This document shows, one piece after another, positions 21,258 to 63,256 of a DNA stretch of 64,000 nucleotides. Position 1 is the stretch's first letter. Each line of letters starts with the position of its first letter. A model generated the notes under the pieces. The model was not told where the DNA came from. It saw nothing but the letters and a program-made list of their open reading frames with translations, and searched no databases. Source of the stretch: Polytrichum commune (lineage: Eukaryota > Streptophyta > Polytrichopsida > Polytrichales > Polytrichaceae); NCBI GenBank assembly GCA_950295325.1, contig OX485807.1, positions 40,206,440 through 40,270,439 of the forward strand, in the 5' to 3' direction. The position numbers and the translations under genes were made by a program.

Positions 21258-21339
21258 CCCCACCGTTACCTCGCCATCGTCATCATCATCATCATCACCT
21301 CCTCCAAACTCCTTCTCCTACTCCGAAGAAGAAGGAACA

Positions 21340-40827: not shown

Positions 40828-41170
40828 ATGGCGGTGGGATCAGTGATTCTCGGCAAGTTGACGATTCTTGCACTGGGTTTTGTCTTCATGGCAATGTTTT
40901 GCCAGCTTCAACTGGCGGAATCTACTCGCCCATCACCTCCAGAATCCTCGAGAACTCGAGACAGCATGGTAGCACAAAAATTTGGACCGTGATGATGTAA
41001 ATCCTCAATAATCTGGGACACCTTCGCCTTCGATTGCCACTGGAACTGTAAAAATGGGATTCAAAAGCTGTGGATGCAGACGATGTTTCGACACCCCATG
41101 TGAGATCAGGATGGAAGTTGCAAATGCAAAAATTGCCGACTGTCCTCAGACTGGGGAGATTGCTTGAATT
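40828..41170 (+). pseudogene. Secreted-peptide precursor relic (family copy 1)
   Basis: A 54-codon frame (40828-40992) begins MAVGSVILGKLTILALGF, then FMAMFCQLQLAES-TRPSPPESSRTRDS. It matches the signal peptide and N-terminus of the copy at 62885 (QLQIAGS-IRLPPPDSRSTRDS) and stops after KFGP. Further on, in another frame, STPHVRSGWKLQMQKLP corresponds to SPPHMSWKLHAQILP of the intact copy, but the proline-rich C-terminus is not recognisable. AATAAA follows at 41325. It is most likely a pseudogene, though an unrecognised intron cannot be excluded. Confidence 0.65.
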
Positions 41171-41470
41171 GTGACTTGGTATGGGCATGACATCAAAATT
41201 GAATAGTTTGTGTGATAGTCAAGAGATCACCAGCCCGTATTAATTTGCAATTAAGTCGTTGATTTCAATTGGCACATTATCTACAAAATTTGATTCAAAT
41301 CAATTTTCTTTATTGTATGAAGGGAATAAAGACACCATTTTTTAATATGATGAAATGTACGGTGTTACTTTTATGGTCTATCGTGGTTATGAACGAATGG
41401 AGTTCGTGTTCTAGCTAATCGGAGACTACCTTGACAGGATGCAATAGCACTTGAACCATAGTTTAAGTTT

Positions 41471-41625
41471 CACTACTAGCAAGCCTATGAGTCCTAGGCA
41501 ATAGTCTTACATTAGTGACAAACAATGTGAATCGATCATTGTGGTAGGTTTGTAGGTTTTCTAGTGACGTAAGACAAGTTTCCAGTGACGCATGTCAATC
41601 ACCTAGGACTCATATTCTTGTAGTG
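41471..41625. mobile_element. CACTA-like MITE
   Basis: Ends are CACTACTAGCAAGCCTATGA and the inverse of CACTACAAGAATATGAGTCC. The arms share ATGAGTCCTAGG. Flanking triplets are TTT and TCT, so the target duplication is imperfect or lost. Confidence 0.75.
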
Positions 41626-41842
41626 TCTGTAAACCCTTGTCATGTCTACGTATATATGAGCTCAAGTCTGTGCCCAAGGGTGAAGCATCAATTTTCTCTT
41701 GTAACTACTTAAATGCCATGATTTTGTGTTTGTGATCAGGGTTGGATAGAAGGCAATTACTACATTGATAGGTGACCTTTGAAGTTATGGTGTTTGCTCT
41801 TTGATCCTCTCCGAACCACGTACTGGTCAAATCACTTGTGCA

Positions 41843-41861
41843 GGGGGGGGGGGGGGGGGGG
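41843..41861. repeat. G19 homopolymer
   Basis: Nineteen consecutive G. Confidence 0.95.
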
Positions 41862-43182
41862 CTGACTCCTTTCAGAGGGTTGTGTATCACGTGCGACCGA
41901 GAGGTATTATTGTAGATGGTATTTTGATGGCTTGGACTAATTAAATGGACCATTCAATTACCTAATTATCTAATTTGTGTTGTTTTGAGGGTCCATATAA
42001 TTACTTACAAATTGTGTAGGGGGGGTATGTTTTTAGCCCCTTAATACGTTATAATAAATTGAAGTAAATTAGAAAAGTGAAATCTAAAGACTAAAGACAA
42101 AGACACGTCTAATGATTTTAGTGCCAAAAGTAAGACTAATTTATCAAGGAACGACACCATGAAACATTGAGTTCCAAATGGAAGTTGCTATTTGTATTGA
42201 CGACCAAAGAATTTCTAAACTTCAATATCTTTGGTTTCAATAATGTTGCCATTACACACTTAATGGCACAAACAACACATAAATGTTTCATTACCAACAT
42301 GAAGATGATATATCCCACACGGTATATTATATTTTTAAAACCTAAATTGGATATGTAACATAGGACCTTACATTAGATATAATCCAATATAGCATTTTTT
42401 ATCCATCATATAGTACCTCTTAAAACTTTCAAATTTTTTGGTACAGCTACTAAATACATTGTATCTTTGGTCACATCATTCTAGCTACATTTTCCTAAGT
42501 CACTCCCCCGGGAATCAAATCTAGTGGTTTGATTAAGAAAACAAGCCACTTAAGGCCCATCTACCTTAAGCTAGAACAAACATTGGGAGCTTCCAATGCT
42601 CGCCATGACACTGTCAGGATAAATATAAATGTATTCATGTCTTGGTAAGTAAAATACAAACTGTGGAAATGTAACTGTGGCAATGAAACTGAAGAAGTAG
42701 ACTGTGTTCTTTCACAGTGGGAACCGATGTTGGACTAGTATAAAGGATAATGCATGGGTTTCAATAATCAACATCAACAATAGTATCAAGGAACCTACCC
42801 GTCGGTAACAAAATTGTAATACCAATCAAATACAATATATTTTGAAGTTTGGTGGACATCTCAAAGTGGAAGAATCTTTGTATAGGAGTATACCCAAGTT
42901 ATTACTTAGGTTAGTATCATTCTAAACCTTATTGTTACTAAGGTTTGATTATCTAGGAGCGAAGGTTCTTGCATGGTATATAGGCATGTATGGTATTGAA
43001 AACAAAAACACTCTTAAGTACCCATAATCCTATTGGTATAAATAAACGGTGAAGTTCTCATATTAGATGTACAAAGGGTATGAAATAAAAAGACGGATAC
43101 CAATCCAACACCTGATGTGAACGTGTGGACCATGTTAAAACCACCATTGATAGAACAAAACTTGTCAAACTTTCAAACTAGA
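41862..43182. other. AT-rich spacer, no gene seen
   Basis: Nothing beyond AT-rich sequence was recognised. Confidence 0.5.
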
Positions 43183-43430
43183 CAGTGAGAATAGAAAACA
43201 CACATTCCAATCATTTGTTGTGACTTGATCATTGTGACTCATGGCAAGAAAAAACGTAAATTAATCATTTTGGTTGTCAACCTGAGGGTTTTGCTTACCC
43301 ATTGTCCAAAAACCATAGCCAAAAACATCCAATTGACCACCAAAGTGATCAACTTATGCATTTTCTCGCCATGAGTCGCAATGGCCAAGTCGCAATGGAT
43401 GTTTGTAATAGACAAAGTTTTCTTCTAGTG
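43183..43430. mobile_element. CACTA-like MITE, family A
   Basis: The right end reads inward as CACTAGAAGAAAACTTTGTC. The arms share TTGTGACTTGATCATTGTGA and CTCATGGCAAGAAAA in inverted form. The interior GTTGTCAACCTGAGGGTTTT matches the 10088 copy (CCTGGAGGGTTTTGGTTGGC). Confidence 0.75.
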
Positions 43431-45219
43431 GCATGGATGGAGTTGAATATGATGGTGGCATCACGAGGGAAGAATTGTGCACATATATATCTTCATATCA
43501 TCATCATCAGTGAAATACATGTTGTGTGGTCCAAGGAAGGCTGTGAATTTTGCAGGAAACACATATACAGATCTGTTTTCGATTTTATTTTTCTTTCATT
43601 TTATTCTGCAGTTAATGTCTTACACATAGATACCTGCAATTTGTACTCACTGTAATTTACGTATGAATTCACTCTTTTGCGAAATTCGCAGTATTTTATA
43701 TGCGATTATGCATTTATCGTTTTCCACAGGAATATGTGGACCATCTCATCTCATCTCATCTGGGACATGTAGCAGTAGCAGCACCATCATCCACGATCAC
43801 TACACTTGACCTGTGAATACGTCGCCACTGATATTTCTTCATCTGCAAATTATGTCAATGATGTGATCTTGTGACATTGAATAATTGGGACGATCACGTG
43901 CTTTTCTTGTTGTGAGACCATGTATACTTTCTCCTCATAGTTTGAACCACACGTTGAAATGTCGGGAGAATAATACCAGTAGTGAAATGGTGTTGGTGGA
44001 GTAGATCAGCACACACAGTGGAGCTGAATCTGGTGTTGTTGACATGCTGTGGAGAAATATGAATCTTGTATTCATTGTCATAGTCAACACTTGTCAAAAT
44101 AGTAGGCGTCGTCCAAGGACTAACTTTCTAAGTAAGATTTCTGCACCCACTACAGTTGAGCATACAATAGTATGATGTGACTATAATGTTGTATATGTGT
44201 TCAAGAAAACACAAGTCAAGTTAAGAGAAATAATGAGACAATGAGAAAAAAACTGCAGCTTCAGTCGGTGCCTTGCATGACCGATTGGTGTTCAATTATA
44301 TCGACAATTGACAAGTTTAAAATACCGCACTAAATATGTGCAATATTGAATTTTCAAGAACTAAGATATGTTGGGGTCGCTTCCAACTCCGCGTACGTGT
44401 TTGACCGTTGAATTGGTTCGAAGATTATGCCACTTACTTAGTGAGTGAGTGAGTGCAAATTTTGCAAAGATGATCCATTCTAAATTTTAATATTGGAGTT
44501 GATTGGATCGGAGTTGCAAAAGCTCCGATATTCATATGGAACGTTTTCCTATTGCGTTCCAGATAAAGAATAAAAGTTTGGATTACATACTGGAAGGAAG
44601 TGGAAGTTGAGGCATGCATGTCTATGCAACACGGTACAAAAAGGAGAAACAATGTTTTGAAAAGGGCTACTTTAAGACTTTACAAGAATATTTGAGGAAG
44701 TACAATTGCACTTTCCGATGCTCTAAGAGCAAGACCACACATTCCCCGGGGGTAGACTCTTCATTGGAAACCTTAATGACGTTGCATGGGTCTCTACGAA
44801 ATTTAACCCCCTATATACAATTTTTTTCATAGAGGAAAACAAATGTATATGCACCAGTGGCTTGCTAGAAAATGGACTCATGTATTTCCAATCTGATGTG
44901 ATTAATGCCTCCACTATATATGTAAAACATAAGTCATGAAACAAATAAGCCTTCATTATATATATTATTATATATTCAGTCCAATTTTCACTTTCCAATG
45001 AGAAAGGCATTGAACATTTTTTTCCATCCATAGCATGTAACTAAACAATTGCATCAATCAAACAAAGACAAGAGCACAACAACCCAGCTACAATCCAGAG
45101 AGCAACACCCAAGAGAGCCATGAGCGCTTTGAGAGTGTCCAAATTGTAAGAAACCTAAAACCCAAATGCAAACCCTAACAAGAATGGTTAGGGTAGTGAT
45201 TGAAGACTATTACATATGA
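43431..45219. other. Spacer, no gene seen
   Basis: No supported feature. Minus-strand frames near 44434-45031 lack any recognisable motif. Confidence 0.5.
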
Positions 45220-45623
45220 TAACAATGGATGAGGCACCACGGACCTTGGCTTGGTGGTTAGGGCTCATGGCCCCCAATGAGGAGGTTGTGGGTTCTATTC
45301 CCCATGCCGGCGTGGTGCTCACCACTTTAGTCCACCCAATTATGGTAGGGGGTCCTTGGACCTTGTTGTATGGGTACCTCAAAGCCCTTTGGGGGGATAC
45401 CATGTCCGGTATCTTCAAGGCACTAGTGGCTAGCTAGGAACTAGTATAGTGTGTCACTATAGTGTCCATCCTCGAAAGGGGAGAGTAGTATTGTCCCAAT
45501 GCCCCCTTGTCCAGTGGGCATCGGGTCATTGGCATTACGAACGGACACTTTATTCACGCCGGCCCCTTGCTAAAAAGGGACCGGAGTTTCTATCTATCTA
45601 TCTATCTATCTAACAATGGATGA
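45220..45623 (+). mobile_element. tRNA-derived SINE with 13-bp target duplication
   Basis: The body (45233-45610, 378 bp) starts with a tRNA-like head. It has an A box TGGCTTGGTGGTTAGG near 45247 and a B box GGTTCTATTCC at 45291-45301. It ends in a TATC repeat. TAACAATGGATGA flanks both ends (45220-45232 and 45611-45623). Pol III promoter boxes, a simple-repeat tail and a long direct flank together define a SINE. The near-perfect duplication suggests a fairly recent insertion. Confidence 0.92.
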
Positions 45624-48600
45624 AGGCATGAATTGGATGAAACTAACACATCTATTGTCAATTTTTTCTCCAAACCTTGGGCCCCCTTTTGTACATCTAC
45701 CTTTAATTCAAAATTCTTAATAGCCTTTTTAAATAAATAAATAAATAAATAAACTAATAAACTAATACCTCTCCCTTATGTAGACTATGTACATTAATGC
45801 CTAAAATAATATCCCTTCTCACACTCATGTTAGTTCGTACATGACATGGAGAGTCCACCGCCCAGGACACATATTACTTGTATGCGAGTTATTCAAAATA
45901 TAGATTTCATTTTTTTGAGTCAACAATTTTGTATGAAACCTTACTCCAAGCAGAGAATGTCAACCTTGTTATGCCGTTTGTCCCATTTGCCACTCGTAAG
46001 ATCTATTCTAGAAGTTGATGGTCAACTATTAAAAATGAATTTGTCAATGGTCATAGAAAAGGTGATAGGAGAATTTATATATCTTCTTTTGACAAAGATG
46101 GGATAATCATAAATATGAGAAACATCGACTGTTGCGGTAGCACTCATAATTATTCAATGAGTCATTTGATGTGATTGGCTAAATTTTTTTTTTGAATCAC
46201 TCGTTTGTAAGTGACTAATAACAAATAGCCAAGTATCAAAGTGTCAAGTATCACGTAACTAAGAGGCAAGTAACAAAGTGTCTAAGTGTCCACATAACCA
46301 AGTTTCCTCTTCCTTTCGAGTAGCAAGCTAACTCTTCCTCCACGTATCTAAATAGCCAAGTGACATGTTTGTTTTTGTATAATTTTTTATAAGTAACTAA
46401 GTAACCAAGTAATCAACTAACTAAGTAACCAATTAGTTTTTTTTGAGTTGCTCTTTTGTAAGTAACTAAGTAACTGAATTGCCAATTCATCAAGTCACAT
46501 TCTTCCTAATCAACTTTTGAACCAAAATCTTTTACTCTTAACTTTTTTTTTCCTATCTTCTCATTCGTTTTTCTCAGTTGTTGATGCAATTTCTTTCCGG
46601 CAAGATATAGGTAGCAATTGATTTAATAACCATCAATTTGTTGTTGGACACTCTTTTACCATGTAAGAAAGATTTTCTCTCTACATGTGTAACAATACCA
46701 ATACCTCTACTAATCTTCCACTTCCTTATCAATTTTGAGGAGGCATCCTTGCTTCATTATCTCGAAATTTATGAAATTCTCAACCCCTCTTTATAGGATA
46801 GTTTCATTCTCATAATAATCTTTCAACACAATATCATTAATGTAGAATCACAATTATGTGAGATGTAATTTATTTTTAGCACAATCACATTGATGATATA
46901 TCTCTCTTGGCTATGAATAAATATAGTCTATTTTTAGTGAAATTCAACTATAAATGTTATAGTCCAAATTTAGCACAACCATATATAGGCCGATCAACAT
47001 TTATGACAATATAATCATGTAATTGTAACAATATATAACAATAAGTTATATATTTTGATGGTTCTTCTGGTTTTTGAACAATGAATGACAAGGAAGTCAA
47101 GGCCGTGAACAAGGAGGACGAGTTAGAGGGGGATGTGGAAGAGGACAGAATGAACGCCAAGGCAATGCATTTAATTTAATCATATCCAATGATATTACAA
47201 TTGATTGGTTTTCAATATTTGATCTACATCAAGATGTGAAGGTGGGAATGGTTATAACAATGGAAACCAATGATATTGATCAACACTTAGGGATTCTTTT
47301 TTGTGGCAAAGGTGCTTTCTTTAAGTCAACAAGCTTGTGAGAATGGTGTTGCAAACGTTTTATTATATCAACCTAAAATGCCAAGAGGATTCCAAGATGA
47401 AGAAGGAAAGTTCCACAGTCGGTATACAAATTATATACAACGTGCTTGGGAACCCTCTCGAGAACCACATGGTTGTATTTCGATTGATTTAATTTTCACT
47501 GCTTGGTAGAATACCGTTGGGACCCAAAATTTTATTACCATTTTGGACATAAGAACTGAGAAAGAGTTAAAACTTTCCAATGGTGAAAAGTTCATTTTGA
47601 ATATCACCTAACTTTTTTAGAATATATTTGTAATATTAACTTCAACTCTGTACTTTCCACAACTTCAAAGGTGGTGCATTTTTTTTTATAAAATACAATG
47701 TTGAAGTTGAAACTTGTCAAGATTTGATGTGAATGGGATTCATTTTATCTTGTTGATGACCAATTATTTATTGGTGCTCTTTGTGTAATTAGAAATTCAA
47801 ACTTGTTCACATGCAATGATGTTTTTCCACAATTTAGCATGGATAAAATACCTTAATTTTTTATCTTGACCATAGAATAAATATTTAATGTCCTTTTATT
47901 TACAACCATATCCAAATCAATAATATTCAATGTTAATTTATAATTATACATAACTCCCATAATAGAATTCCTCATATTATTGTAGAATCAAGTATTTTTA
48001 CAAAAATCACCAAGTCATAATTTGGTTAATGTCCAAGCACATTAAAATAAATGTAACCATATTTATAATTTCTTAATTTATAGCCAAGACAATTGTAATA
48101 TGGTCATATTTTCATTGAAATCTAAGCGTTTGCAATAAATTGTTTATGTGCACATTTACATATTGAATTGCATTTTTAACAAAACCGGTGTTGAAGTACA
48201 ACCGAGTGAAAGAGGTAAATGAAAACATGGTGCAAAGACCAAAGAGGCCGTTTTTTAGGTTGTTGTCATTGCATCCAAGTATAATCCAACCGGATATCTC
48301 CTTCGAGCATAATTTTTTGAAGTCAACAAAATTCACATGTTGAGTGGAAGAATCCATAAAATGTAGAATATTTAAACTTGCACAAGAATCATGTGGTCCA
48401 AAAATGAAACAAGACTCAATTCTAGTAAATTGTCATTCCTCATGAAGCAAGAAAATGACCAAAAGCACATGCTACACAACTACCTAATAAAGGTAAACTT
48501 ACAACAACAATATCCCAATTTGTTGATTGGAAAGTTTGTCTTATGATGACCGTATATAAAGAGCAAGAGTCTAAGGATAACAATTTCATTAAAATCCGAA

Positions 48601-49599
48601 TTAAAATCCGAGTGGGAGATTAAGAAAATTATCTAAGAATTTGATCCTTTTGGATACAATAGGTGTTTGGTCCTATTTGAATACCAACCTCCCAGAATGA
48701 AGCTTTATAGAAATGATATAGACCAACAAACAAATGTGGTCCTTTGTAGAACTAATTGTCAAGGGTATTAAACCAACCTTGCTTAAGTTATCACCATCAC
48801 ATTTTGAACGTTGTTTCATTTTAGCTTCCAATCTCCTTGGAGATAACAACCTCCGAAGAAATTGGTTTGTGTACCTATAGTTTGCCATATCACTTTCGGT
48901 TTTGATACTTCACTTTGCTTGTTTCTGAGTTTACAATTATGCACTTTACAATCTTTTGAATACTATCCAAGACGTTTACAAGTCCAATACATTATTCTTG
49001 AGCAAAAATTACTTTGCCTAACACTCTCAAATTGGCTCTCGTTTACTAATAATTTGGTTTGTGTTACAAAATTTTGTTAATGGCTTCTTTGAATCCTATA
49101 GGTTTTTTTTATTTTTTAAAAAAGGATTTTGATAATCCAAAAGGCTTTCACTAAACTATAACTAGGTGTGTTTCAATGGTTATTTGACTTCCATACTTTG
49201 CAAGGATCCATTAAATGGATTCTTAATTATAGTTCTAGACATCCGATCTATATGTGTTTTTGAGTTTAAATACCTCTTCAAGTTTTCATAAAAATATAAA
49301 GATATAATTGTAACTCATTATTTCCATATTTATTTCCGGTTTTGAATTTCCTAAAGGTTGATGTAAACCTCTTGGTCAAGACTTTAGCCTAACAGAGTCT
49401 CCAAATGCACTTATTCGACTAGACTTAAATCGACTGTAGCCTTACCCGGCAACGGCCCCAAAATCTCTTTATTAAGCTACAATTGTTCCCATAAAATTTT
49501 TGAGATGCTTTTGATGGAATTTGGAATTGAGAACAACATCGTTAAGGTGAGTTCTCAGATTTAGTTACTTTTTCTAGGTTTAATAGTCAGCAGATTTTT
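45624..49599. other. AT-rich spacer with decayed coding fragments
   Basis: Very AT-rich. At 47089-47170 one plus-strand frame encodes a glycine/arginine-rich run (REQGGRVRGGCGRGQNERQG). At 47303-47509 another encodes PKMPRGFQDEEGKFHSRYTN. These may be retroelement gag-like or other gene relics, but no family was recognised. An AAAT microsatellite lies at about 45734-45752. Confidence 0.4.
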
Positions 49600-49850
49600 G
49601 GGAGCCCACAGTGGAGGGGGGGGGCCTATTTGATCATTTATTAATGGTTAGCATAGATGAACTCAACCGTGTTGATAACACCCCATTATTCTAGTAATGG
49701 GGGGAGGAACCTATATGATCGTTTAAGAAGAAAGGAGGATTCACTTTGACAACAAACAAGATAGTTCAAATCACATATGAGCTCCAAAAACCGTGAGCAA
49801 GATTACTAAAGCCTCCATTCGAATTTGCTAAATACTTTCATACTAGACAA
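49600..49850 (-). repeat. Dispersed repeat R1, inverted copy
   Basis: Read on the minus strand, it carries TTTTTGGAGCTCATATGTGA and the following R1 blocks, with diverged edges. Confidence 0.6.
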
Positions 49851-51523
49851 TCTTTTGTTTAATCCCGTCCAATGTGGATTCATCGGAAAGCATAACCACG
49901 TAAGACCCGTCAACCAGGCTTATAGTCAAAGTTTCCTATGTGCCATTAATTTAGGAGAAGTACTTATGGCTTCTAACATTTCAATTTGAACTAGAAATCC
50001 ACTCATACAAATTGCCCTACCATAGTGACACCAGTGTTGGGCAGGTATTAAAATTGGCATCAAACCCCCGCTAGTTATAAAGGCAGTTCTTTGAATTTGT
50101 AACCGTGGTATTCAAATTTTTCAAATAACCAACTTCATTCATAATTGTGGTTTGAAAATTATTTTTTAATCCAATCAGATAACCTTTTAAAAGATCGCCA
50201 GTTTGTTGTTGTCAGTTCTTTAATGAAAACCACCAGGTTTTTGAATCTTTTCAAATACCTAAGGCCGGAGGTTTTTTTATTGTAAGAATTTTCAAAACCC
50301 CGGAATCAAAAGTTCTTTGCTTCTTAATTGTCTTCGAAAACAGGATTCAAAGGTTAGTAACAAAATCAAATAATAGCCCAACATTGGGTGACACCATACC
50401 CAAAATCCCATGTGATTGCTTGCACACTATCCATTTGATCTTCCTTCTTTAACTTGGTACATTATGTCCATTTTTAACATTATCAAAAGTCCAGTGTTGC
50501 ATGTCTTCCATGCGTGGGCTAGAGCTTCATGGTGTTTAGTGTGTAAACTCATCCATTGCGAAGATGAAACAAAATACAAGATTCTTTGTGGTTGTTATAC
50601 TGATGAATGAAAAAAACCATAATTAGTTGTTATGATATGATCTTGATCGAAAGTAATTTGCATAAGTATTGCAAAAGTCAACCTAATTGCACACGTTAGT
50701 GTAGGTTAGTAGGAATCAATTGGCATGGGACGAAATAAAATCTAGATCCCTAAATCCAAGACTCCAAAGACTAAGGAACTAGAAGTACATCAAGGTGGGG
50801 GTCAAAAAGGCTAATTTCCCATGGCAATGGAGGGTAATGACTTTCATGAGCTTCGGCGAATATCAACTTGCCAGTCCACCAAGACTCGGGACTATCAAAC
50901 GCTACATTCCAACATAGGGGAAAAACCTAATTCCAATGAAGTTGTAGAGGGGGGCAACCCCAACATAAAGTGGCGGTACCTTGTTTTCAACTACATTGTA
51001 AAAGCCAAAACGGCACAACATGTTGATTCTAGAAATTGAATCCACCTTGAACCTTTAGACGAGGGCTAGACTCCCCCACCCTTGACATCCAAGGTGAAAA
51101 CGCACCCAACTAAATCATAGCATGTAGATTTCTTTGCGAAGATTATTGGCCCCCCCAAGCTAGTATCAAAGCCCTAAGCCAATTCTCAATGACCCACTTG
51201 AGATGAATTAACCACAAACCTATGAAGATCAAATTTCCTTACTAGACTCCCTTCACCTTGACAATCATGGTGGGACCTAGCTCAAAGAGGTAGGACCCAG
51301 GTGTCTAGGTTTCACCGAACTTAAAAAGGGGGAACGTTTCTTAAGTCACATTGATTATCCCAATCAGTGCATGCTACCAACTTACTATTCAAACTTACAC
51401 ATATTAGCAATAAACACGATATTCAATATTTTGAGAGAGTGGGATCCTCTCAAAATAATATTGGCCATTTGGACACCTAAAAGTCATGTTAGGTTGATAA
51501 ATACTAGATTATACTTCAGACGT
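49851..51523. other. AT-rich spacer, no gene seen
   Basis: No supported coding region, RNA gene or element. Confidence 0.5.
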
Positions 51524-51888
51524 GTAGTTTCCATTAAAATGAGAGTATGTTAAGCTGGGAAATCGACTCATTTAGGTTGAGTCGACCTAAATGAGGACAA
51601 TATTTTGTCAATTTAAGTTGAGTCGACCTAAATGAGGACATTATGTTGTCAATTTAGGTTGAGTCGACCTAAATGAGGACAATTATGTTAGTCAATTTAG
51701 GTTGAGTCGACCTAAATGAGGTCATTATGTTAGTCAATTTAGGTTGAGTCGACCTAAATGAGGACAATATGTTAGTCAATTTAGGTTGAGTCAACCTAAA
51801 TGAGGACAATATGTTGTCAATTTAGGTTGAGTCGACCTAAATGAGTCGATTTCCCAGCTTAACATACTCTCATTTTAATGGAAACTAC
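51524..51888. mobile_element. 365-bp palindromic element with seven 42-bp internal repeats
   Basis: GTAGTTTCCATTAAAATGAG...AAATCGACTCATTTAGGT at the left is repeated inverted and without mismatch at the right, at least 54 bp. Between the arms, GAGTCGACCTAAATGAGG recurs at 51581, 51622, 51663, 51706, 51748, 51790 (GTCAACC variant) and 51831, spacings 41-43 bp. Each unit is itself near-palindromic around GTCGAC. I found no target duplication. It is a MITE-like or foldback element whose transcript would fold into a long hairpin. Confidence 0.85.
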
Positions 51889-52138: not shown

Positions 52139-52661
52139 TCATTCATTGATAGTCATAACATGGCGTAACTCCGAGTAGCAACACGCACTCAAGTGTAAAG
52201 CCCTATCGTCCACGGTGGATGAGGAGTAGTCTCTCACGTAGCCACCAAAGTCTAGCTCACCCCTCGTATATATCCACCTCCTTACATGGTCCGTACGTTT
52301 CTCAGGCGACCAGGTTCCCGGGACACAATAAAGTCCGGCCACCTGCCGAGTTTTATAAACATTCGAGTCGAAAGTCCACTCGCTAGCCTGACGTTTGTGT
52401 TGGTCAAAGTCGGAGAAAATGATATTCAGTGAATCGGAGTCACTGCAGGTGAAGTTGACAACCTTCCGCAATAGGAGACTTCAACCTCCTGGATGAGTCA
52501 TTGTGAACTAGCCGCAAACTTGGAACCTTTTCTTTTTGGGGAGCCACAGTATCGTTCGTCAGTGGAGGCTCCGAAACCGTGTCCAATGTCCTCATGACCC
52601 ACTTGAAATTCAGTACCCAACAAAGGCCGACACACACACACACACATGTATATATATACAT
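52139..52661 (-). CDS. Possible hypothetical gene, divergent from peptide copy 2
   Basis: A minus-strand frame at 52139-52471 contains FDQHKRQASEWTFDSNVYKT, DHVRRWIYTRGELDFGGYVR and SSTVDDRALHLSACCYSELR. Its composition looks like real protein. Its first codon in that frame is TTG, so a start or an upstream exon is missing. The adjoining frame (52440-52661) with PSLRLVHNDSSRRLKS may precede it through a frameshift or intron. I recognise no family. Either a small gene or a relic is possible. Confidence 0.3.
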
Positions 52662-52866
52662 ACATATGAACAGGTCATCTTAAACCTGCGATATCAAGAC
52701 CTTCAATACTTCGATCGCGTTCTTCCCCACCTCGCTTGCTCGCTCGCTCGCTTACTTGAGGAAATTTGATTGTTTCTGCTAGTGGTGGGATTTCAGACGC
52801 ATCTGACAACTTGGCGTCTTCGATTTGAAGGAGGCACTTAGGGTTTGGTGCTCTCGCTTGGGAGAA

Positions 52867-52874
52867 TATAAAAG
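52867..52874 (+). promoter_or_regulatory. Probable TATA box of peptide copy 2
   Basis: TATAAAAG lies about 200 bp before the start codon at 53071, in a suitable position for a core promoter. Confidence 0.5.
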
Positions 52875-53070
52875 CTGCGCAATCAGGTTTGACATACCTT
52901 TACCTTGAAGCGATCAATTGGATCCACTGGTGACCTGCGGGAGACGTGCATCAAATTGAAGGACGAGGGGATTGATCATCCCTAATTTGGAGTTGAAGAT
53001 TCGACCCAAAATAAAACAAAGGGGGATCGAATTGGATCGACATCAGAAATCGTCGTCAACATCTATCAAC

Positions 53071-53388
53071 ATGGCATATTCAAGAGTGATCGTAACCACC
53101 AAGTTCGCAATTCTGGCGATAATTATTGCTCTCATGGCGACCCAGCAGCTCCAAGTTGTGGAGTCGATACGACTAGTGCCGACTGATCCAGGCTGCCAAC
53201 GAGGCCTCGATTTGGGGATGGCCGAATCTTCCGAATCAACTTCAGTGATTCCAAACTCGGAAACTCTATCAGTTGCTCATGGTTCGAGTTCCATGGCAGC
53301 TCACTCGGGGAGCTGGAAGTTGCACATACAGAGCTTGGTGAACAAGGCACCGTCACCACCATCAGGCAACCCAACACATAACCGTTGA
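53071..53388 (+). CDS. Secreted-peptide precursor (family copy 2), 105 residues
   Basis: A single exon. Residues 1-31 form a signal peptide: basic MAYSRVIVTTK, hydrophobic FAILAIIIALMA, then QQLQVVES before IRLVP. A variable serine-rich middle follows, then a conserved block SWKLHIQSLV-NKAPSPPSGNPTHNR at the end. Signal peptide, variable spacer and short proline-rich C-terminus ending in HN is the layout of plant peptide-hormone precursors such as IDA/IDL and CLE. The spacing fits neither exactly, so this may be a separate family. The first ATG in frame was chosen because the homologous copies begin at the same place. AATAAA lies at 53467. Confidence 0.85.
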   Translation: MAYSRVIVTTKFAILAIIIALMATQQLQVVESIRLVPTDPGCQRGLDLGMAESSESTSVIPNSETLSVAHGSSSMAAHSGSWKLHIQSLVNKAPSPPSGNPTHNR

Positions 53389-53466
53389 TAAGTTCGAGTG
53401 ACAGATTAATACAGACTTAGGTAGACATTAGGTTACACCACATTCATTCTTGTACAGATTTGAATC

Positions 53467-53472
53467 AATAAA
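53467..53472 (+). promoter_or_regulatory. Polyadenylation signal of peptide copy 2
   Basis: AATAAA lies 79 bp after the stop codon. Confidence 0.55.
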
Positions 53473-53587
53473 GTTATCCATCATACATACAACAGTATGC
53501 TACGTTACCAAAACTTGCACCGGATTCTAAGTAGGGTGTCTTCACAAAGAAGGCTTCGTCGAAAGTAGAGTAGTAAAACATGTCAGG

Positions 53588-53624
53588 CCCCAGGCCACTG
53601 CAGGCCACTGCAGGCCACCTGGGG
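53588..53624. other. GC-rich hairpin with three 10-bp repeats
   Basis: CCCCAGG pairs with CCTGGGG. The loop holds AGGCCACTGC repeated, and a run of seven T follows. It lies about 200 bp downstream of peptide copy 2. The function is unknown. Confidence 0.6.
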
Positions 53625-54139
53625 TTTTTTTGGGTCTGTCAAAGCTTGAGTGGAAGAACTTGATTGAGGTGATACAGTGGTATTATGTGGCGGGCGTAAT
53701 TATAGGGTCGCTTATCTTAATCAAACATCTACATTTTCATGGTGTGTGGATCTGAGAATTGCACAAGGGGTAATCTTATCGGTGTTTGGCTAGAAAACGT
53801 GGTGCGATAAAGTATAGAGTCCTCTTTAATGTTTCAAAGTGATGATTGTAAAAGTAAATAAGGTTATGGAAATCCATTATGAGAGTACACTAGGTATAGT
53901 TCAAGAACATTCACTAAATATGTGGAATATCCCATGAATATGCAAATTATTTCATAACTTTCTTTAAAATTCCCTTTTATCTCAAGTGGTTCACATCTCA
54001 AAGCCCGCAAGCTATCGTTACCACTCACTACCTTCAGGACCCTCTCTCACAAGTTCAGGTCATGCCCTTATTGGTGAGGGTCGTTAAGGAGCTCAAATGG
54101 CTTCACTAGGACTAGTCGCACTACCCTTCCCTACTCATA
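53625..54139. other. Spacer, no gene seen
   Basis: Nothing recognised. Confidence 0.45.
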
Positions 54140-54594
54140 TAAGTTTCTTGTCCTCTGTGACGGACCCCCGCCTCACCGTCCTAGAATGGAATGTTCATCC
54201 CAAAGTGAGGCCAACAATTGTTTTTCGGGCTAGCAGCTCTGTAGGCCGCTTTTTGTCCGATTGGGATGTTCTTTAAATTGTTGGATATGCCTTGAAAATA
54301 CCTTTCCAACCATAGTTCAATCATCCCCACATGAATAAGGCATGAATTTTAAGTAATTAAAAGATTGTTGTTGCCTCTGGAAGGCAACATGAGGATCCTT
54401 TTCGGATAACCCTCACACTTAGCCTTTATGAGGGTTAGTGTGGTCCCTTAGCACCTCTTTAGCGCCACCCATGCAGTCAGCCACCCCTCCATATGGGTGA
54501 CCATCGCCTCAAGTCGCCTTGCAGGACTTGGCCGTCACCCCAAGGTCCACTCCCTTAAGTGGCATGCTGGATAAGTCCAATTAGGGGCGCGACG
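54140..54594. other. GC-richer repeat-like block of unknown class
   Basis: Base composition differs from the AT-rich surroundings and the text looks like a retroelement LTR or internal fragment, but no ends, coding motif or second copy were found in this window. Confidence 0.3.
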
Positions 54595-54760
54595 ATATCA
54601 TACAGATCTCCCCATTAGTGTTGACTTATTGAACCTACATTAGTAAACAAATTATGAACATGTGGTCCAATTTCTTTGTACCCACGTGTATTTTTGATGT
54701 TTGTTCTTAGATCCACACCTTACGGCACACAAATCTAGGTGTTTGATCAAGATAAATAAC
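54595..54760 (+). repeat. Dispersed repeat R1, 3' half, diverged
   Basis: Contains CAGATCTCCCCATTAGTGTT, GTGGTCCAATTTCTTTG and AAATCTAGGTGTTTGATC, in the R1 order. Confidence 0.6.
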
Positions 54761-57700
54761 CAAATCAAACCCGCTTACCTTAGTATGATCAACGGTTGCA
54801 TGATTGTGTTGTACCATAAATGATTATTCAATATATAAGCATATATATATATATATTGAAATGAATGATCTGATTTCGCCTAAAACATAACTATTCAAAA
54901 CTGAAAGAGAATGCCGACATAGTGTTGAATATTTGGGTAAATGGTCACATCTCTTTGACAATTCCATTACATCAGCTTCATTAGTTACATGCAACAAAGG
55001 TAAACATTTTGGTTATTCATTTGATAATGCTGTTCTAGATCTAATGGTACATCCTTTGTAAATCAAGCCTTAAAATCCTCATAGTACGTTGAGATGAAAC
55101 TATCTTCATTGAAATTTGTGATCAAATCATGAGTGAGTTCAGGAGCGGGTTTATCATGATGATTGGAGCACCGACAACTAGGCGTATTTTGTAAGGGCAC
55201 TACAAGCATATGAAACATGGGCAATTGTCATGCATCGTTGGAAACTTGTCTTATGTCAATGGAAATTTTGCCTAGACTCTTGCAAGGTGTCCATGACCCT
55301 ACTTTGGTTGCCATGGTTACTAAAAAATATAGATGATTTGCAAGCCACGAGCCAACATGAATGGGTTGGGGTTAACTAAGGACTATCCCGGGTAGCAACA
55401 CCCCATATAATGAGCAAGCTGCAAGAGTCATTTGCCAAATGAGGTTTTGAATATTTATTATAAGTTCATAATAAAGCATGAAAATTTTATAATTATAAAA
55501 AATTAATTATAAAAATGCTAGAATAAGGTATAGGGTGCAAGCACGGTAAAGTGGACACCTCCTAATCCATGCCTAGTGTTCAGTGAAAGTGACTGAAAAC
55601 TATACACTAACTTTAATATTTGTGACGAAAAAAACCATGATAGACATTTTTAAAACATAGTAATCTACAAAGCCAAGAAAAGTATGATGACCAAAAAATA
55701 TCCAAGAAAAGTCAATATATTTTAGAAGACGGTTAAGTGTTGTGCAAGTAGGTGATATTGAACAAGTGACTGTTTAAAAAATTTCTAAAGTATGATAATA
55801 TTACATTAAATTGATGGTTTTCCACAAAGTTTGCTGATGATTCCCTCAAGTAGATAATGAATTCAAGGAATATGAAAGAAAAATCCAACTTCAAAATAGT
55901 TAAGGTCATGAAATCCACGTTCAAAACCAGACTCAACCATTTTCTTTTGAGCATCACTTTTAATTATAAATGTTGAAGATCTCAACTTGATTTTCTACAT
56001 TTTAGTATTCAACACAACAACAAAGGTCATCATGAAAAGAAATCCAAATTGAACAACACTTTGTTGCTACTTTTAGGCCTTTGACCAAAACAATTATGGT
56101 TTTAGTATACCGGAGCACTTTTTTGGTTCACTTTACCATACTTGCACCCTCCAACAAGCAAAATTCTTGTTTTTTAGTATTTAAGAAAATCCTACTATAT
56201 CTTAACAAGACATACATAGTGAATTTCCTTACTCTTCTCTTATATTCCATTACCAACGGGATTTACGGAGATCAACTATGCCCCCTATGTGTGTGTGTGT
56301 GTGTTATAGTTAATTACTTTGTAGAATTTGGTACTTTTTAATCAGAGGTAGGAGGCACTCCTGGAATTCCTTTAAGTCCAAGACTGATCTCCTATCTCCT
56401 CCATAGCCTTTACCCACCAAGAAGGGCTTGAATATGATTGAAATGAATATAATTCCATGCCCATGAATATATGCTACAAACTTCTACAAGAGTCCAAAGC
56501 TCGAATAAAACCCACAGTCCCACCTGACCTTTGTCGTGCAGGATCGTGCGTAATTGCCATCGTGCCTGTAAGTTTCACTCAAGAAGTAAAGAAACAAGAT
56601 AGGTACACTAAATATACACTAATTCAAGTCACATGCACAATCTAGTCAAATCTCAAATTTACCGAGGGCTAAATTTGTTACTAAGTGACACTAAATTCAT
56701 GACTAACGTAAGTTCTATGTTCATTTATCATAGATTTCAAGAAAATCAGTGTGCGCTTATGATTAATGCGCACCACATGCTTGTCAATGATTAGTGCCAA
56801 GTGTTGAGATGAACAATGCTTCCTAGACTTCGATCTAAGATCATTTTGGTGGCACTAATTCATAGCGTTAAGGAATTTAGTATCACCTTCACTACTCTCC
56901 CACACTCGCTAATTGGTATATTTAGTGTACTAATCATTTCTGAAATTTCATCCATGCTGCCACTATTTTCATTGTTCTTTGAGGCTCTACTTCCATATTA
57001 TGTCCCATCTATTCAATTTGCAACTTGTAATGGTCCCAAACAGTAAGATTTCATAACCTGATCCGTGGCGTCAATACCGGCTACCTAGCAGAGTGGGACT
57101 CCTTAAAGAACGTTTGATTGCATGAATTGATTCTCCCAGTGCTCACATGCTCCTATGCAGCACTAATTAATGGCAGATTCACGGCAGATTCCGAGCCTTA
57201 TAGTGAAAGTTGTCCATCTACGCTCGAAGCTTGGAAATATGAGCGAGTCCCACCAGGCCATGGTGCCATATATGGCCGATTGTCAACGCAAAAAGGCACC
57301 TCATCAAGTTAGTTAAATTTACTGTAAGCAACATGGTACGGTCTTTGGTTGTACTTTTAACACTGCGTTGCGGCCCTTGAAGAGTCAGTATAAGACTATT
57401 CTGTTATGGAAGAGTAGGCGCAGCTAAGAATGTCTGGAATAATATTAAGCTCCAAGATTTAATGCGCAGCCTTTCAGCCGAGGACGTCTAGTTGGATGCA
57501 TGGGTGATGTCTGCTGTTATGTAACTATAAGTAGGGACACATATGAGCCCACCTAGAATCCGCAAACTACAATACACAATTGATCAGCACGTCCTACTTC
57601 ATTTCGTTGCTATCATTGAATTATTGTCGGTCGGACTCCTCGTCATCACTGTTTCAGTGGCGGCCGGCCAGTACTTCTGCCTACAATTTCAGGGACCAGA

Positions 57701-57978
57701 TCACGCTGGAGTGAAGTTTTCACTTTCGACGAACCACGACACATTAGGTTTGAGGGTGTAGAAAACTCGAACCTTCTTGAATGAGTCAGCCAATATAAGA
57801 TAGATGCAACCATCGAAAGTCGCTTGATCCCCATCAGATCTAGTACTATTTGACGCGACAAACAATCAGCTTGATCTCCACATGGTTTTGACATAACGGA
57901 TTTATTTACATAGCAGCGTACATAACAGGGGTTTCCTGCAGTGCTTGAATTTACATACTGGAAGTGTTTTATATAAGC
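54761..57978. other. Spacer, no gene seen
   Basis: Three kilobases without a supported gene. A TA microsatellite lies near 54842-54859 and a GT run near 56288-56303. Plus-strand frames at 57118-57312 and 57543-57761 have no family match. Confidence 0.45.
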
Positions 57979-58419
57979 GTGACAACGGGATCCAGTTTGG
58001 TTGTAAAATACTCGCAGTTGCGGTGATGATCTTCGTGGTGCTAGGCCACACTAATGCATTTTGACTGCATTAATGTCAACTTATTGAGCACAATAATGTC
58101 ACAAAATATGAAACTTTCTCTCAGTGGACACTTAGAATGTCACAAAGTTGACAAATGAATATGACATCTTAAATCCACTGGATTCCAGTAGTGCCAGCTT
58201 CAACTTGGAGAGTGTATACGACTGACGCCTCTCAATTCTTCAAATGGAAATTCAGCAAGCCCTGATCGAATGGATCAGTTGGAAATTGATGGGAGAGCTA
58301 CTTCGGATTCTGAAGTGGCAGATCATACTGTAACCACAAAATGGGAATTCCAGATTCTACAGAGCTTGGTCAACAAGGCTCCACCATCACCGCAGCCAAA
58401 TTCTCCTCACAATCAGTAG
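57979..58419 (+). pseudogene. Secreted-peptide precursor relic (family copy 3), split by a MITE
   Basis: The position of the start codon in copy 1 is GTG here, a 1-base shift follows, and the signal peptide KILAVAVMIFVVLG is cut by the element at 58049-58193. Beyond it, QLQLGEC-IRLTPLNSSNG continues in the frame expected if the element and one target copy are left out. The rest is open to the stop. It includes TTKWEFQILQSL and ends NKAPPSPQPNSPHNQ, so the C-terminal motif is kept but varied. Loss of the start, the frameshift and the insertion make it a pseudogene. Splicing of the insertion is formally possible but would not restore a start. Confidence 0.75.
58049..58193. mobile_element. 145-bp CACTA-like MITE inside peptide copy 3
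   Basis: Starts CACTAATGCATTTTGACTGC and ends CTGGATTCCAGTAGTG. CCA flanks both sides (58046-58048 and 58194-58196). The reading frame on either side becomes continuous across GGC-CAG-CTT when the element and one CCA are left out, which independently confirms both borders. Confidence 0.88.
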
Positions 58420-60909
58420 ATTTTTTCTTTAAATTACTTCACATCTGGACTATCATTCACAGGAGCTCAGGTTCTTCACCTCTGATCAAATTATAAACGG
58501 GTTATTTGGTTTATTGTACCAACTTAGTCGCATCTGCAAAAAAAAATTGAAGACATTAGGGAGAGGTGATGAAGTTCAGGAGCTTGTGATTGATCAGGTG
58601 CTTAGACATGATAGTTAAGTTAGGCACTGTGATACTATATTAAGTGAACATATTCTTCTCCAATCGCTTATAAGATGACATAATTTGGCACATCATTGAG
58701 CGTATTGAGTTTTTTTGGAAAACTAGATCAAATGTAAGGTAATAAAGATGCTACAACGATGGTAACTTCTATCTTTACAAGGCGTTGTTCGATTCCCAGT
58801 CTCTTGCAATCGAGTAATTGAGCATGTTGGGATGCCAACATCATAACATTACTATGCTCATGAGTTGTGTTCAGCTACTCTGATTTCAAATTTAGTATGA
58901 AGCAATGGGATTCCGACATCTAGAGCCTTCATTCTTCGAATCTACTAGGCCCATGAACACAGCTCATCATCTCAATAATGTTATGACGAAAATTTGATCA
59001 ATGTGCCTTACAAGCAAATAGGCATGATATCTTTGTGTCAAAGGAGATCAAAAGCATTGTTGTTTAATGTATGCATTCAATGGCCCTAAGAAAATGGCAA
59101 GAGTGACCATAAATTTCCAGTTTTTGGGTTTCATTGTCTACTTTACTATGTCTTATTTGTTTGAACCTTTGGCAAAATGAGTCCTTGACCTTCAACATCG
59201 TAATCAACAAACTATTTGAAAATTGGAGTTGATATGTGACCATTGGGATTGACCTAAAAAAAATAAAAATTAATGAATTTCAAAAAGATGAAGAGTCTAT
59301 AGATATAATCAAATGGTTGAACGTAAGCATCTACAGCCATGAGGGGTTGCACTCTTCTTTACAAGTAGCAGCCACATGCATGCGGGACACCTTATTAAAA
59401 ACCCATATATGTAAAATTTTGATGACCAAAAAAAAACACTATATGTACAAATTATAGACTACATAATAGTTTCATGTATACATATATAGCCAATTTTGAA
59501 CTCCTAGAGTAGATTTCCTCAATTTTGTATACCAAATATAGGCAAATGGATAAGATAGGCATGTGTTGTGAAAACATCCGTTTTCAACTGCAATCGGAAA
59601 CGGAGGGTTCAAGCCTTGCAAAATCACCATCTTGGACCAGAGTAAAAAACAAACGATCCTACCCAAAAAAAGAGGGACCAACCTTGAAACCAAGTTCCTC
59701 AAGGTTAGGCACATGTTAAGGCCAAAATGAATTGACCTTGGCCCACCAAACTCATTGAGGGTGCACTATACATAACACGTACGACTATACGTGAATGGCC
59801 AAAAGGGATATTACTTTGAACTTTGGATGTACTACATATGTACATATGCTACACAAATTATAACTCTTTGTTATGTACATGTACGGAGGAAGATATACAA
59901 CATTTGTACTTGTATGGTAGTGTTGCTATGTTAAATCTTGGTTGTGATTGTGGTGTGCGTTTTTTGGAACACACTTCAAGATAAAATCATGTGTAAATAA
60001 ACAAAGTAGACCAAAAGAATCGACTCCAATTAAGGTTTGCTTTGTTGAGAGGGTTTTAAGGATGCATAGAAAGATTGGTTATTGTTGGGTGGAGTATAGG
60101 GATGACTTCATAGACCGTTCATCAAACATGAAGATTGGCTTATGTTGGTATAAAAAAAGGAAACAACAACAAGTGGACATATGATCATGTTGACCATTTG
60201 ATGGTAATATAATAATTTGATGTTGTTACCATTTGATGGTAATAATTTGATAGAAACAATAATTGCATTAGCTTTTATTACATAAATTGCAAGCTTAGAT
60301 GCTTATGAGTTACATTTGGGGGATGAAAATTTTCCTCAACAACTTTATTGATGAATCTTGGGTTTTGCATTATACATATGATAGGCGTTGATTGTTATTC
60401 AAAAGTATATTTGCATACTTATTGTTGATGATTATATACAAATGTAACTCTTTTATGTGTACATATTGTCACTCGTATCTTTATCTTTGAAATTGTATGT
60501 GTATTGCTTAATTTCTACAACAAACACCCAAAAAAACAAAAACTTGTATATAGGGGATTTTTAGATTATGTTGCAAATGCACATGATTCTTGCTTTTAAT
60601 GAAATGTGCACCCATGGGGACCAAATTATGTTTCAAAACCGGTGTTTTTGAACATGCGTGGCCTCCACATGACATATTGAAGTCCATGTTGGGTGACCTT
60701 GACCCAAGTTCAGGAATTGGAGTTGACATTCCAAATGACTAGAAATCAATGCACTAAAATTTCTTAAATGATTAAGATTGATAATGAGAAAGTTGGTGAC
60801 GAAGTTACCAACATCATACTAGAGCAAGTTGACAACCGTTATTGGCAAAAAAACAAAAACAAAAACAAAATAAACACGGTCACATGCAAACAACACGGCT
60901 CCAAACATT
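58420..60909. other. AT-rich spacer, no gene seen
   Basis: No supported coding region, RNA gene or element end. A CAAAA-type run lies near 60848-60870. Confidence 0.5.
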
Positions 60910-61091
60910 AAGCTTGTAAAAACAGCACAATGAATGTATGAAGGGTCTACATTGGGCATTTGGATTCAACAAAGCAATACTTTGGAACCATTTTGGTTGG
61001 GACCATGTTTTACGACGCCATTGTTCTACATGAGTCCAATTGCACGGAGTTATTACATGGACCATTGCGATCCAGTTCATGTGCTTCCCTA

Positions 61092-61297
61092 CACTACAAA
61101 GAAAAAGGAGGGCCAAATGGCAAGACACGTAGAAAATGTGTTGCTAAATACCATGTTTTATGTTGTTTATGTCAAAGTGCTCAAATTAACAAAACAAAAA
61201 CAGGAGGAATTTTGCAACACACCTCCTAAGACTCATTTTGAATGTGTCGACGTAGCCCCCCCCCCCCCCCCCCCCCCTTTGTCCTTGTAAGTTAGTG
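61092..61297. mobile_element. CACTA-like MITE, first duplicate unit
   Basis: Starts CACTACAAAGAAAAAGGAGG. The inverted right end reads CACTAACTTACAAGGACAAA. A run of 22 C (61256-61277) lies just inside the right end. Confidence 0.7.
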
Positions 61298-61502
61298 CTA
61301 AATGACATCTCAAAAATTTGGATGAAATTGCTTGTAAAATTGGCACACCAAATCTACGCGGGGTCTAGATTGGGCATGTAAATTCAACAAAGTAACCATT
61401 TTGTTTGAGACCATATTCTCTCAAACTGTTGCTCCGCCCGAGTCTAACTGTACGGAGACATTGCATGGACCAGAGCAATCCAATTCACGTAGTACGTCCT
61501 TA

Positions 61503-61712
61503 CACTACAAGAAAAAAAGGAGGGCTTGTTGACACACCCCAAATTGCAAGATCGCACGTAGGAAGCGCGTCGCTTAATAGCCATTGTTTATGTTGTTTAT
61601 GTTAAAGTGCTCTTAATCAACGACACAATAAACAGTCCTTGGGAACACACCTCCTACGACTCATTTGGAATGTATCGACTGGTAGCCCCCCCTCCCCTTG
61701 TCCTTGCAAGTG
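61503..61712. mobile_element. CACTA-like MITE, second duplicate unit
   Basis: Starts CACTACAAGAAAAAAAGGAG. The inverted right end reads CACTTGCAAGGACAAGGGGA. The C tract at the same internal place is only eight bases long. Confidence 0.7.
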
Positions 61713-61750
61713 AGTCTCGATCGATGTCCCGCAAATTCCGATGAATCTGT

Positions 61751-62399
61751 CTGCCCCAGTGCCGACGGCCATTATAAAGTCGAAAGTTGACCCTGTTATC
61801 AGGGGTCAAAGATACGCAGTTTAATATGAACGAGTAATTGCGCAAAGTTGCAGATAGCTGTTGATGAGCTCAGCAGACGGCGGTGCACGCTTTATTAGTT
61901 ATTATGATGTGTTTCTCAAATCAAATCGCAGCTTCGGAAGTAAACACTGAGACTTTCGGGGTAAATTCCGTGGATGGGCAGTGTGTATAATTAGGAGCTC
62001 AAGACCCACCAGATCAAACATCTGACATCGACTGTAAAAGCGCCAAAAACTGGATTCTCAGAGTACGACCAAGGTCATCTGAGGTTAGATTTCCAACCGC
62101 TCTCTTGGTGTTCCTCCTCCCCAGTGTTGCAGTGAGCAGCTGGGACTCTGCGTGTTTCAGGTTTCCAGGCTCCTCAAGGTTCTTAGAATGCATGGAGAGA
62201 TTTCAATTTCATGCCTCTTATTGCTAGTTGAGCTGCCTGCATTATCAGTGTAAGGATCGAGAACGGGCTCACATTCACGTCGGCACGCGAGTATCGATGT
62301 TTTGTTCTTTAGTCTTTCTTGCGTTGCCTGCAACTGATAGAGCATCAGTGAAGCATAGTTTCGTTTGTCAGAGGTGTAAGTTCATCAAACATTCCCAGT
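61751..62399. other. Spacer upstream of peptide copy 4
   Basis: GC-richer than the spacer on either side. Short frames on both strands have no recognisable motif. Confidence 0.45.
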
Positions 62400-62725
62400 A
62401 AGGTTTGTGGACCCAGTATGGGCACTTTCAACTCCACATACAACTAAATTAGCCGTTGGATCTGACTGCAAATTGTCACATCCAGTTAGCAATCGCGATG
62501 AATCTTGAAGATTGGCATGTCGAGTTTACACAGTCATAGTGAAGAGTATCTCTCTCTTCAGACGGTCACGTAGAGACTCCCAATCGTGTGAACTGCTGAA
62601 CCTAGAATGCTGTCTATATATGTTTGTACATAGTCCAATCTCATGTTTCGAAACACAAGTCTGTTCCGTGTCCTGTCCTTAACTACAAGCCCGCTCAAAT
62701 ATAGGTGTCCAATTAAGACGAGTGA
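62400..62725 (+). repeat. Dispersed repeat R2 upstream of peptide copy 4
   Basis: Contains GTATGGGCACTTTCAACTCC, GCCGTTGGATCTGACTG, CATAGTCCAATCTCATGTTT and GCTCAAATATAGGTGTCCAA. It lies 160 bp before the start codon of copy 4, as another R2 lies upstream of copy 1. Confidence 0.75.
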
Positions 62726-62884
62726 CATCATAGCACATACCTTAATGGTGAGTGATATTCTAAAAGCTTCTCATCGTTATTCTACTGCAGGATTATTTGC
62801 ATCAAAGGAGGTTGCCGTCGTTTAATCTACTTGCAAGCTTGACGACGACGACGTTCAGGGATTTTATTTTACTTGGCAGCACAG

Positions 62885-63256
62885 ATGGCGTCCAGGCCAA
62901 TTTTCACCAAGTTCACAATCCTCGCGATTGCCTTCATGGGACTTATCCAGCTTCAGATTGCAGGCTCCATCCGACTGCCGCCGCCAGACTCTCGAAGCAC
63001 TCGAGATTCTAGGACCCCAGCTTCAGATGAGCTGAAAACTCTCCCACTGGTAGGCTTACAGTTGGGCAATAAATTTAATACCGATGATCCTGGGACAGAA
63101 TTTCCAATTTCCACACAAACTGATCATGTTGCGGACTTGACTCAAGAATCGGCAGATTCATCCACTTCCCCGCCACACATGAGCTGGAAGTTACACGCAC
63201 AGATCTTGCCCAACAAGTACCCACCTCCACCAGGCGGCAACCCAACACATGGTTGA
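62885..63256 (+). CDS. Secreted-peptide precursor (family copy 4), 123 residues
   Basis: A single exon. The signal peptide is MASRPIFTKFTILAIAFMGL then IQLQIAGS, with likely cleavage before IRLPPPDSRSTRDS. The middle is acidic and serine/threonine-rich. The conserved C-terminal block is SPPHMSWKLHAQILP then NKYPPPPGGNPTHG. Compared with copy 2, the end is PTHG rather than PTHNR. Secretion and processing to a short proline-rich peptide is inferred from the layout. The first ATG matches the start of copies 1 and 2. Putative polyadenylation signal AATAAA is at 63439. Confidence 0.85.
   Translation: MASRPIFTKFTILAIAFMGLIQLQIAGSIRLPPPDSRSTRDSRTPASDELKTLPLVGLQLGNKFNTDDPGTEFPISTQTDHVADLTQESADSSTSPPHMSWKLHAQILPNKYPPPPGGNPTHG

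Follow-up and report, generated by a model that had tools for sequence, protein, structure and literature searches.

A two-cluster family of short genes in the moss Polytrichum commune with the layout of secreted peptide precursors

We analyzed a 64,000-nucleotide stretch of the Polytrichum commune genome (GCA_950295325.1; 408 Mb in 64 contigs), contig OX485807.1 ("C5" here) positions 40206440-40270439, which we refer to as the window. It carries four members of a family of short genes that probably encode precursors of a secreted, C-terminally encoded peptide ligand. A sequence-only reading of the window had described four copies on one strand, of which two are intact and two broken, sharing a QLQ core, an IRLxP start of the mature part, a variable middle, a tryptophan block, and a proline-rich end, and we found the copies and these elements as described. 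All four lie on the plus strand. The intact copies, C5a (window 53071-53388, 105 amino acids [aa]) and C5b (window 62885-63256, 123 aa), are single-exon open frames recognized by the family profile. The predicted C5a signal peptide (window 53071-53166) would be cut before IRLVP, as judged by the -3,-1 rule and by eye, and that of C5b (window 62885-62968) before IRLPP, again by rule and eye. Each copy then ends in a conserved C-terminal block: SWKLHIQSLVNKAPSPPSGNPTHN in C5a (window 53311-53382), followed by R and the stop, and SWKLHAQILPNKYPPPPGGNPTHG in C5b (window 63182-63253).

The two broken copies are recognizable by parts. C5c was identified through its signal peptide part (CQLQLAES/TRPSPPES, window 40828-40992), whose frame ends early at a stop (40990-40992), together with a remnant of the tryptophan block (SGWKLQMQKLP, window 41106-41174) that lies in a different frame and lacks the PPPP end. 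C5d, which the profile scans also picked up, runs from CQLQLGEC/IRLTP to its stop (window 58192-58419), with another stop directly upstream of the QLQ segment, and ends in an altered block, WEFQILQSLVNKAPPSPQPNSPHNQ (window 58342-58416), that aligns to the family block. About 150 bases upstream of the QLQ segment is a hydrophobic, signal-peptide-like remnant, KILAVAVMIFVVLG (window 58005-58046), in a frame unlike the rest and without a preceding ATG. The simplest reading is that C5d is an interrupted copy; an intron is possible, but would be required in none of the other copies.

The four-copy locus is real, but it is only part of a two-cluster family, which comprises seven intact single-exon frames (101-131 aa), three broken copies, and one divergent probable relative. 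The fifth C5 copy, C5e, is intact and lies outside the window on the opposite strand, ~36 kb downstream (C5 40305864-40306274, minus), giving the C5 cluster an extent of ~59 kb. The second cluster, on contig C1, spans 72639128-72796848. There, the profile scan recovered four intact copies, C1a (72639128-72639502, minus), C1b (72757894-72758292), C1c (72787709-72788053), and C1d (72792694-72793110; the last three are given without strand), and the broken C1e (72783981-72784259, minus), which has two internal stops. The divergent C1f, a 158-aa frame from its ATG (72796336-72796848), was found by profile only. A 399-codon DDE transposase frame (C5:40284148-40285344, minus; Pfam DDE_Tnp_4, E 3.7e-27, and Plant_tran) lies between C5b and C5e and is a possible source of local rearrangement.

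All intact genes share one layout, in which a predicted signal peptide ending before [IT]R is followed by an unconserved middle and then, at the C-terminus, by a block with the consensus WKLxAQxLxN[KR]YPPPPxGN[PS]xH[NG]. In this respect, the peptide-hormone-like precursor layout proposed from the window copies extends to all seven. An arginine directly follows the rule-assigned signal peptide in each (7/7), and 44-71 residues separate the cut site from the block. Across nine aligned block units, eight from intact copies plus that of C5d, residues L9, P14, P17, and N20 are invariant. The eight units come from seven genes, as C5e carries two adjacent units. Scored with a profile that contains both, they reach 49.1 and 48.4 bits; even after both are taken out of the profile, C5e is recovered at 51.4 bits (E 2.8e-14). 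Its second unit lacks the tryptophan, and the two differ at proportions of 0.45 of silent sites (pS) and 0.35 of amino acid-changing sites (pN).

To assess the family against chance, we used whole-genome protein searches and profile scans of local open reading frames (ORFs). Searches with C5b, C5a, C1b, C1d, C1f, C5e, and C1c as queries gave matches with E < 1 only within the C5 and C1 clusters. The profile scans covered 214 kb, made up of 104 kb from C5 and 100 kb plus 10 kb from C1, with 7,076 six-frame ORFs of at least 20 residues; C1:72644001-72710000, within the C1 cluster, lay outside these scans, and a copy diverged beyond the reach of BLAST may have escaped notice there. Leave-one-out profiles recovered all seven intact copies, each ranking seventh or higher, with E-values between 6.9e-15 and 7.9e-7, and the best non-family ORF in any run, setting aside the broken copies and C1f, reached E 0.069. 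Because each of the seven frames is recovered by a profile built without it, the family is not a product of chance. A signal-peptide rule (hydrophobic core plus [AVG]x[SAGC][IT]R[LPF]), written post hoc when the family was already known, selects 8 of the 7,076 ORFs, namely the seven intact copies and the broken C5c. Pfam gave no family at E up to 1 for any of the eight proteins (seven intact copies and C1f), and thus no profile match that would place the copies in a described family, the outcome named beforehand as refuting the proposal.

Several candidate additions were rejected. At the DNA level, the pattern WKLxxQxLxN[KR] with up to two mismatches gave 3139 + 3273 matches versus 2301 + 2402 in the control and added no member; of its 28 exact matches, 4 are family members. 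Weak profile matches at C1:72774895-72775152 resemble a short repeat and were dropped, as were off-cluster matches at C5:44492323 (E 2.18), C4:30073839 (E 7.66), and C1:72161812 (E 1.28). A search of bacterial and archaeal genomes with C5b gave 1 match among 111 candidate stretches, restricted to residues 30-67 (TPASDELK, positions 1001-1138 of a Deltaproteobacteria assembly); since it is confined to the unconserved middle, we took it as chance.

The status of C1f was judged separately. It has a signal-peptide-like start ending in VEC/RYN, an acidic middle, no tryptophan, and the end GINRRPPPPGSNSPHT. Its profile E-value is 0.024, under the inclusion line, with a leave-one-out range of 0.011 to 59, and as a whole-genome protein query it recovered no other copy. 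We built a position-specific scoring matrix (PSSM) of the eight block units and compared it with the C1f end and with 14 peptides or peptide ends from other families, each against 1000 shuffles (p values uncorrected throughout). The C1f end tops all of its own shuffles in the gapped comparison (p 0.001) and reaches p 0.007 ungapped. On these sequence comparisons, C1f is probably a divergent relative, and it is left out of the intact-copy count.

Along the precursor, the end block is under the strongest constraint and the signal peptide under less. Over the 24-codon block (28 pairwise comparisons among eight units), silent sites are saturated, with a pooled pS of 0.81, and pN is 0.34; with one unit per gene and the first 22 block codons, the values are 0.82 and 0.31. 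The signal-peptide block gives pS 0.75 and pN 0.51. In the 20 codons just upstream of the block, pS is 0.72 and pN is 0.68, the latter partly inflated by misalignment, as this ungapped comparison covers a stretch that cannot be aligned by position. A constrained end block behind an unconstrained middle is the pattern expected of a precursor that releases a C-terminal peptide. The proline-rich end could instead point to small secreted proline-rich proteins with structural, wall-associated, or antimicrobial roles, acting whole or as fragments and not as receptor ligands, and defence proteins, too, typically lie in tandem clusters that turn over fast. We consider this unlikely, as the prolines are limited to one short C-terminal run and a middle with pN close to pS would be odd for a structural protein.

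The earlier suggestion of birth-and-death turnover gains support from the seven intact versus three broken copies in two clusters, which indicate both gain and loss. No common gene order was recognized when the C1 and C5 regions were compared overall, and the DNA they share resembles dispersed repeats. Turnover raises the question of whether the whole family is decaying, with every copy, including the open ones, a relic without present function: 3 of the 10 recognizable copies (C1f not counted) are broken, and the intact ones are known from sequence only. Yet seven full-length frames have survived the saturation of silent sites in the block, which requires long selection at the protein level, at least formerly, and makes general decay very improbable.

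The reading that we favor, with fairly good confidence, is that the genes are precursors of a secreted peptide ligand encoded at the C-terminus. Removal of the signal peptide would occur just before the conserved [IT]R, and the unconserved middle would be a discarded pro-region. The active peptide would consist of 11 to 24 C-terminal residues, minimally YPPPPxGN[PS]xH[NG] and possibly everything from the conserved tryptophan; cleavage may fall near [KR]Y or near that tryptophan, with the tail then trimmed. Copies would be gained and lost within both clusters; as speculation, two clusters with frequent loss would fit a role in defence or reproduction. By analogy with CLE, IDA, and RGF, hydroxylation of the prolines is probable and their arabinosylation possible, and perception may be by a leucine-rich repeat receptor kinase of the CLV1/HAESA class. 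Both proline modifications are reported for CLE and other families (PMC11756074). The CLEs of Physcomitrium patens reportedly signal through PpRPK2 (PMC6089843), which makes CLV1/RPK2 receptors the first candidates. C5e would supply two tandem units from one precursor, which supports the peptide-precursor reading because two motifs are also described in the PIP2, PIP3, and PIPL1 precursors (PMC4526919). The arginine after the signal peptide and the small, apparently intronless gene argue in the same direction, as they match descriptions of IDA and PIP precursors.

Some observations weigh against a peptide ligand. The last two block residues vary (HN, HG, HE, GN, QN, PG), with 0-4 residues beyond them, although a fixed end is essential to CLE and IDA. 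Neither a basic residue nor tyrosine is invariant ahead of PPPP: the residue before the tyrosine is K, R, T, or A, and C5a and C5d have alanine in place of the tyrosine itself, so that tyrosine sulfation throughout the family is unlikely. Gene signals are weak: the same four of eight genes (C5a, C5b, C5e, and C1d) have TATA-like words in the 400 bases upstream and AATAAA/ATTAAA in the 600 bases downstream, counts that come without a chance control. Signal peptides were called by rule, not by a trained predictor, and all support comes from the sequence of a single genome.

Elsewhere in the window, a tandem array of a 212-base unit occupies positions 5111-6898 (8.4 copies, 94% matches). Exons of the RNA polymerase II second-largest subunit lie on the plus strand at ~24300-32440, where 24886-25377 matches Pfam RNA_pol_Rpb2_1 (E 1.9e-22) and PDB RPB2 chains also match. 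Two LysM stretches are encoded by an open frame at 20752-21279 on the minus strand (Pfam LysM, E 2.6e-19). Scanning the window for Rfam families and tRNAs gave no match. Far from the window, C5:1751760-1846160 holds fourteen equal-scoring LHCII frames in ~95 kb on both strands, a cluster of near-identical antenna genes. Against PDB, the LHCII of this genome scores 483.8 bits with 8htu_U and 481.9 bits with 7xqp_a, the next single-domain chain reaching 451.2 bits; the first-listed match, 9vfj_2, is multi-domain, and two of its domains score 305.0 and 255.8 bits. 8HTU is called PpPSI-L (PMC10005731) and 7XQP is from Physcomitrium patens (PMC12589708). Like the CLE motifs described below, these matches indicate that the plant is most likely a moss.

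Among known peptide families, IDA/IDL and PIP/PIPL are described in seed plants and as absent in Selaginella, Physcomitrella, and algae (PMC4526919), in conflict with a later review in which IDA-like genes occur in bryophytes (PMC12401889). PIP/PIPL and PSK are reported as undetected in non-vascular lineages, with IDA/IDL-like motifs claimed in three eukaryotic lineages (PMC13091385), and RGF-like sequences are inferred to have been lost before Bryophytina (PMC8329595). Altogether, mosses are reported to lack PIP, CEP, RGF (in Bryophytina), and IDA (in one study), and of the families compared here CLE is the best described in them. P. patens is reported to have nine CLEs (PMC12138186), all of one motif class, RxVP[ST]GPNPLHN (PMC7552357). 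Our literature search, judged from titles and the starts of abstracts and with subscription papers mostly outside its coverage, found no described moss family with this block. We tentatively propose, as a plausible but far from assured extension, a ligand family private to mosses, or to this moss lineage, and distinct from CLE, with an N-P-x-H-N end, an invariant Asn in place of the IDA-type core proline, and gain and loss in two clusters. Such a family could be a moss counterpart of the IDA, RGF, and CEP signals that are reported as absent or lost, or a fast-evolving immune or reproductive signal. If true, moss receptor kinases would gain a new candidate ligand, from a second family that is duplicating and follows the same precursor logic.

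Compared with known families, the block has its closest likeness in CLE. Like moss CLEs (RxVP[ST]GPNPLHN), the family has a rule-assigned signal peptide, a variable middle, and a C-terminal motif of 12-13 residues, so that the CLE-type precursor layout is present, and the best copies have an N-P-x-H-N end and a P-[ST]-G segment. In gapped PSSM comparisons, CLE peptides included the best score among known peptides (CLE9/10, p 0.004; CLE45, 0.005; PpCLE, 0.020; CLE46, 0.024; TDIF, 0.069), and two CLE ends of this genome gave 0.026 and 0.017. One could picture a strongly diverged moss CLE branch that lost one residue near position 7, gained upstream prolines, and still acts via CLV1/RPK2-type receptors; its mechanism would match the favored reading, with CLE ancestry. 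In its favor are gapped p values of 0.004 to 0.026 for all of these except TDIF, which are borderline after correction for 15 tests, and the C5 CLE precursor, which also has AES/AR after its hydrophobic core and a tryptophan before its motif. We nonetheless find this origin doubtful, if possible. Ungapped, no CLE peptide beats its shuffles (p 0.13-0.36 for the five peptides, 0.73-0.80 for the two genome ends), and TDIF fails even with gaps. The register motif RxVPxGP[ND]Px[H]x does not occur in the family, which is one residue shorter from G to N, has PPPP in place of xVP, does not conserve CLE G6 and P7, and carries the additional conserved WKLxAQxL stretch. The genome also has separate canonical CLEs, with the motif RLVPTGPNPLHN at C5:5643344-5643724 and RMVPTGPNPLHN at both C7:32216479-32216520 and C4:11763632-11763676, the latter two with a common tail, SNRSQVIFP. 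Both are reported as P. patens CLE motifs (PMC6089843). The C5 CLE precursor as BLAST query found no family member, and the CLE locus was never among the whole-genome matches of seven family queries.

The remaining families are more distant. Gapped p values were 0.029 for the PVPP type, 0.921 for PIPL3, 0.020 for PSY1, 0.047 and 0.019 for IDA (12-mer and 20-mer), 0.127 for RGF1, and 0.227 for CEP1. Without gaps, none of the 14 peptides or ends reached p 0.05 (lowest, 0.080; RGF1, 0.108), which bears out the claimed misfit to IDA and CLE spacing; the tryptophan block likewise falls outside both motifs, as had been proposed. Shared with IDA/IDL are the arginine right after the signal peptide, the small and apparently intronless gene, and PxPPS[GA] followed by an HN-like end; judged from the frames alone, all seven genes are single open frames, of 101-131 aa as compared with the "intronless, <110 aa" description. 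In contrast, none of the eight units from intact copies has S[GAV]PS and [RK][RK]HN as IDA/IDL are defined in PMC4526919, and Asn stands at the core-proline position. Arabidopsis IDA as a genome query gave a single match (E 9.25), a frame without the IDA motif, which we rejected. PIP/PIPL resemble the family in precursor layout, in the arginine after the signal peptide, and in the tandem motifs of some precursors, but their SGPS core and GxGH end are found in none of the eight units. CEP shares a GNSP-like segment near the end of some copies, and multi-motif precursors are known there; the SPG[IV]GH end (PMC4526919) again occurs in 0/8 units. For RGF/GLV/CLEL, Y2, P5, P10, H12, and N13 match in C1b when counted back from the end, but Asn occupies position 9, no unit has D before Y, alanine replaces tyrosine in C5a and C5d, and the D1-Y2 start with P10 and N13 that defines RGF (PMC8329595) is not found. 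These genes are a real family, of the generally known kind of short secreted peptide precursors, that on the features compared is not assignable to CLE, IDA, PIP, RGF, or CEP. Its likeness to CLE is modest and that to IDA and PSY1 weaker still, with altered spacing in every case; if the ligand reading is true, the HN-ending peptide design would have been reshaped outside vascular plants.

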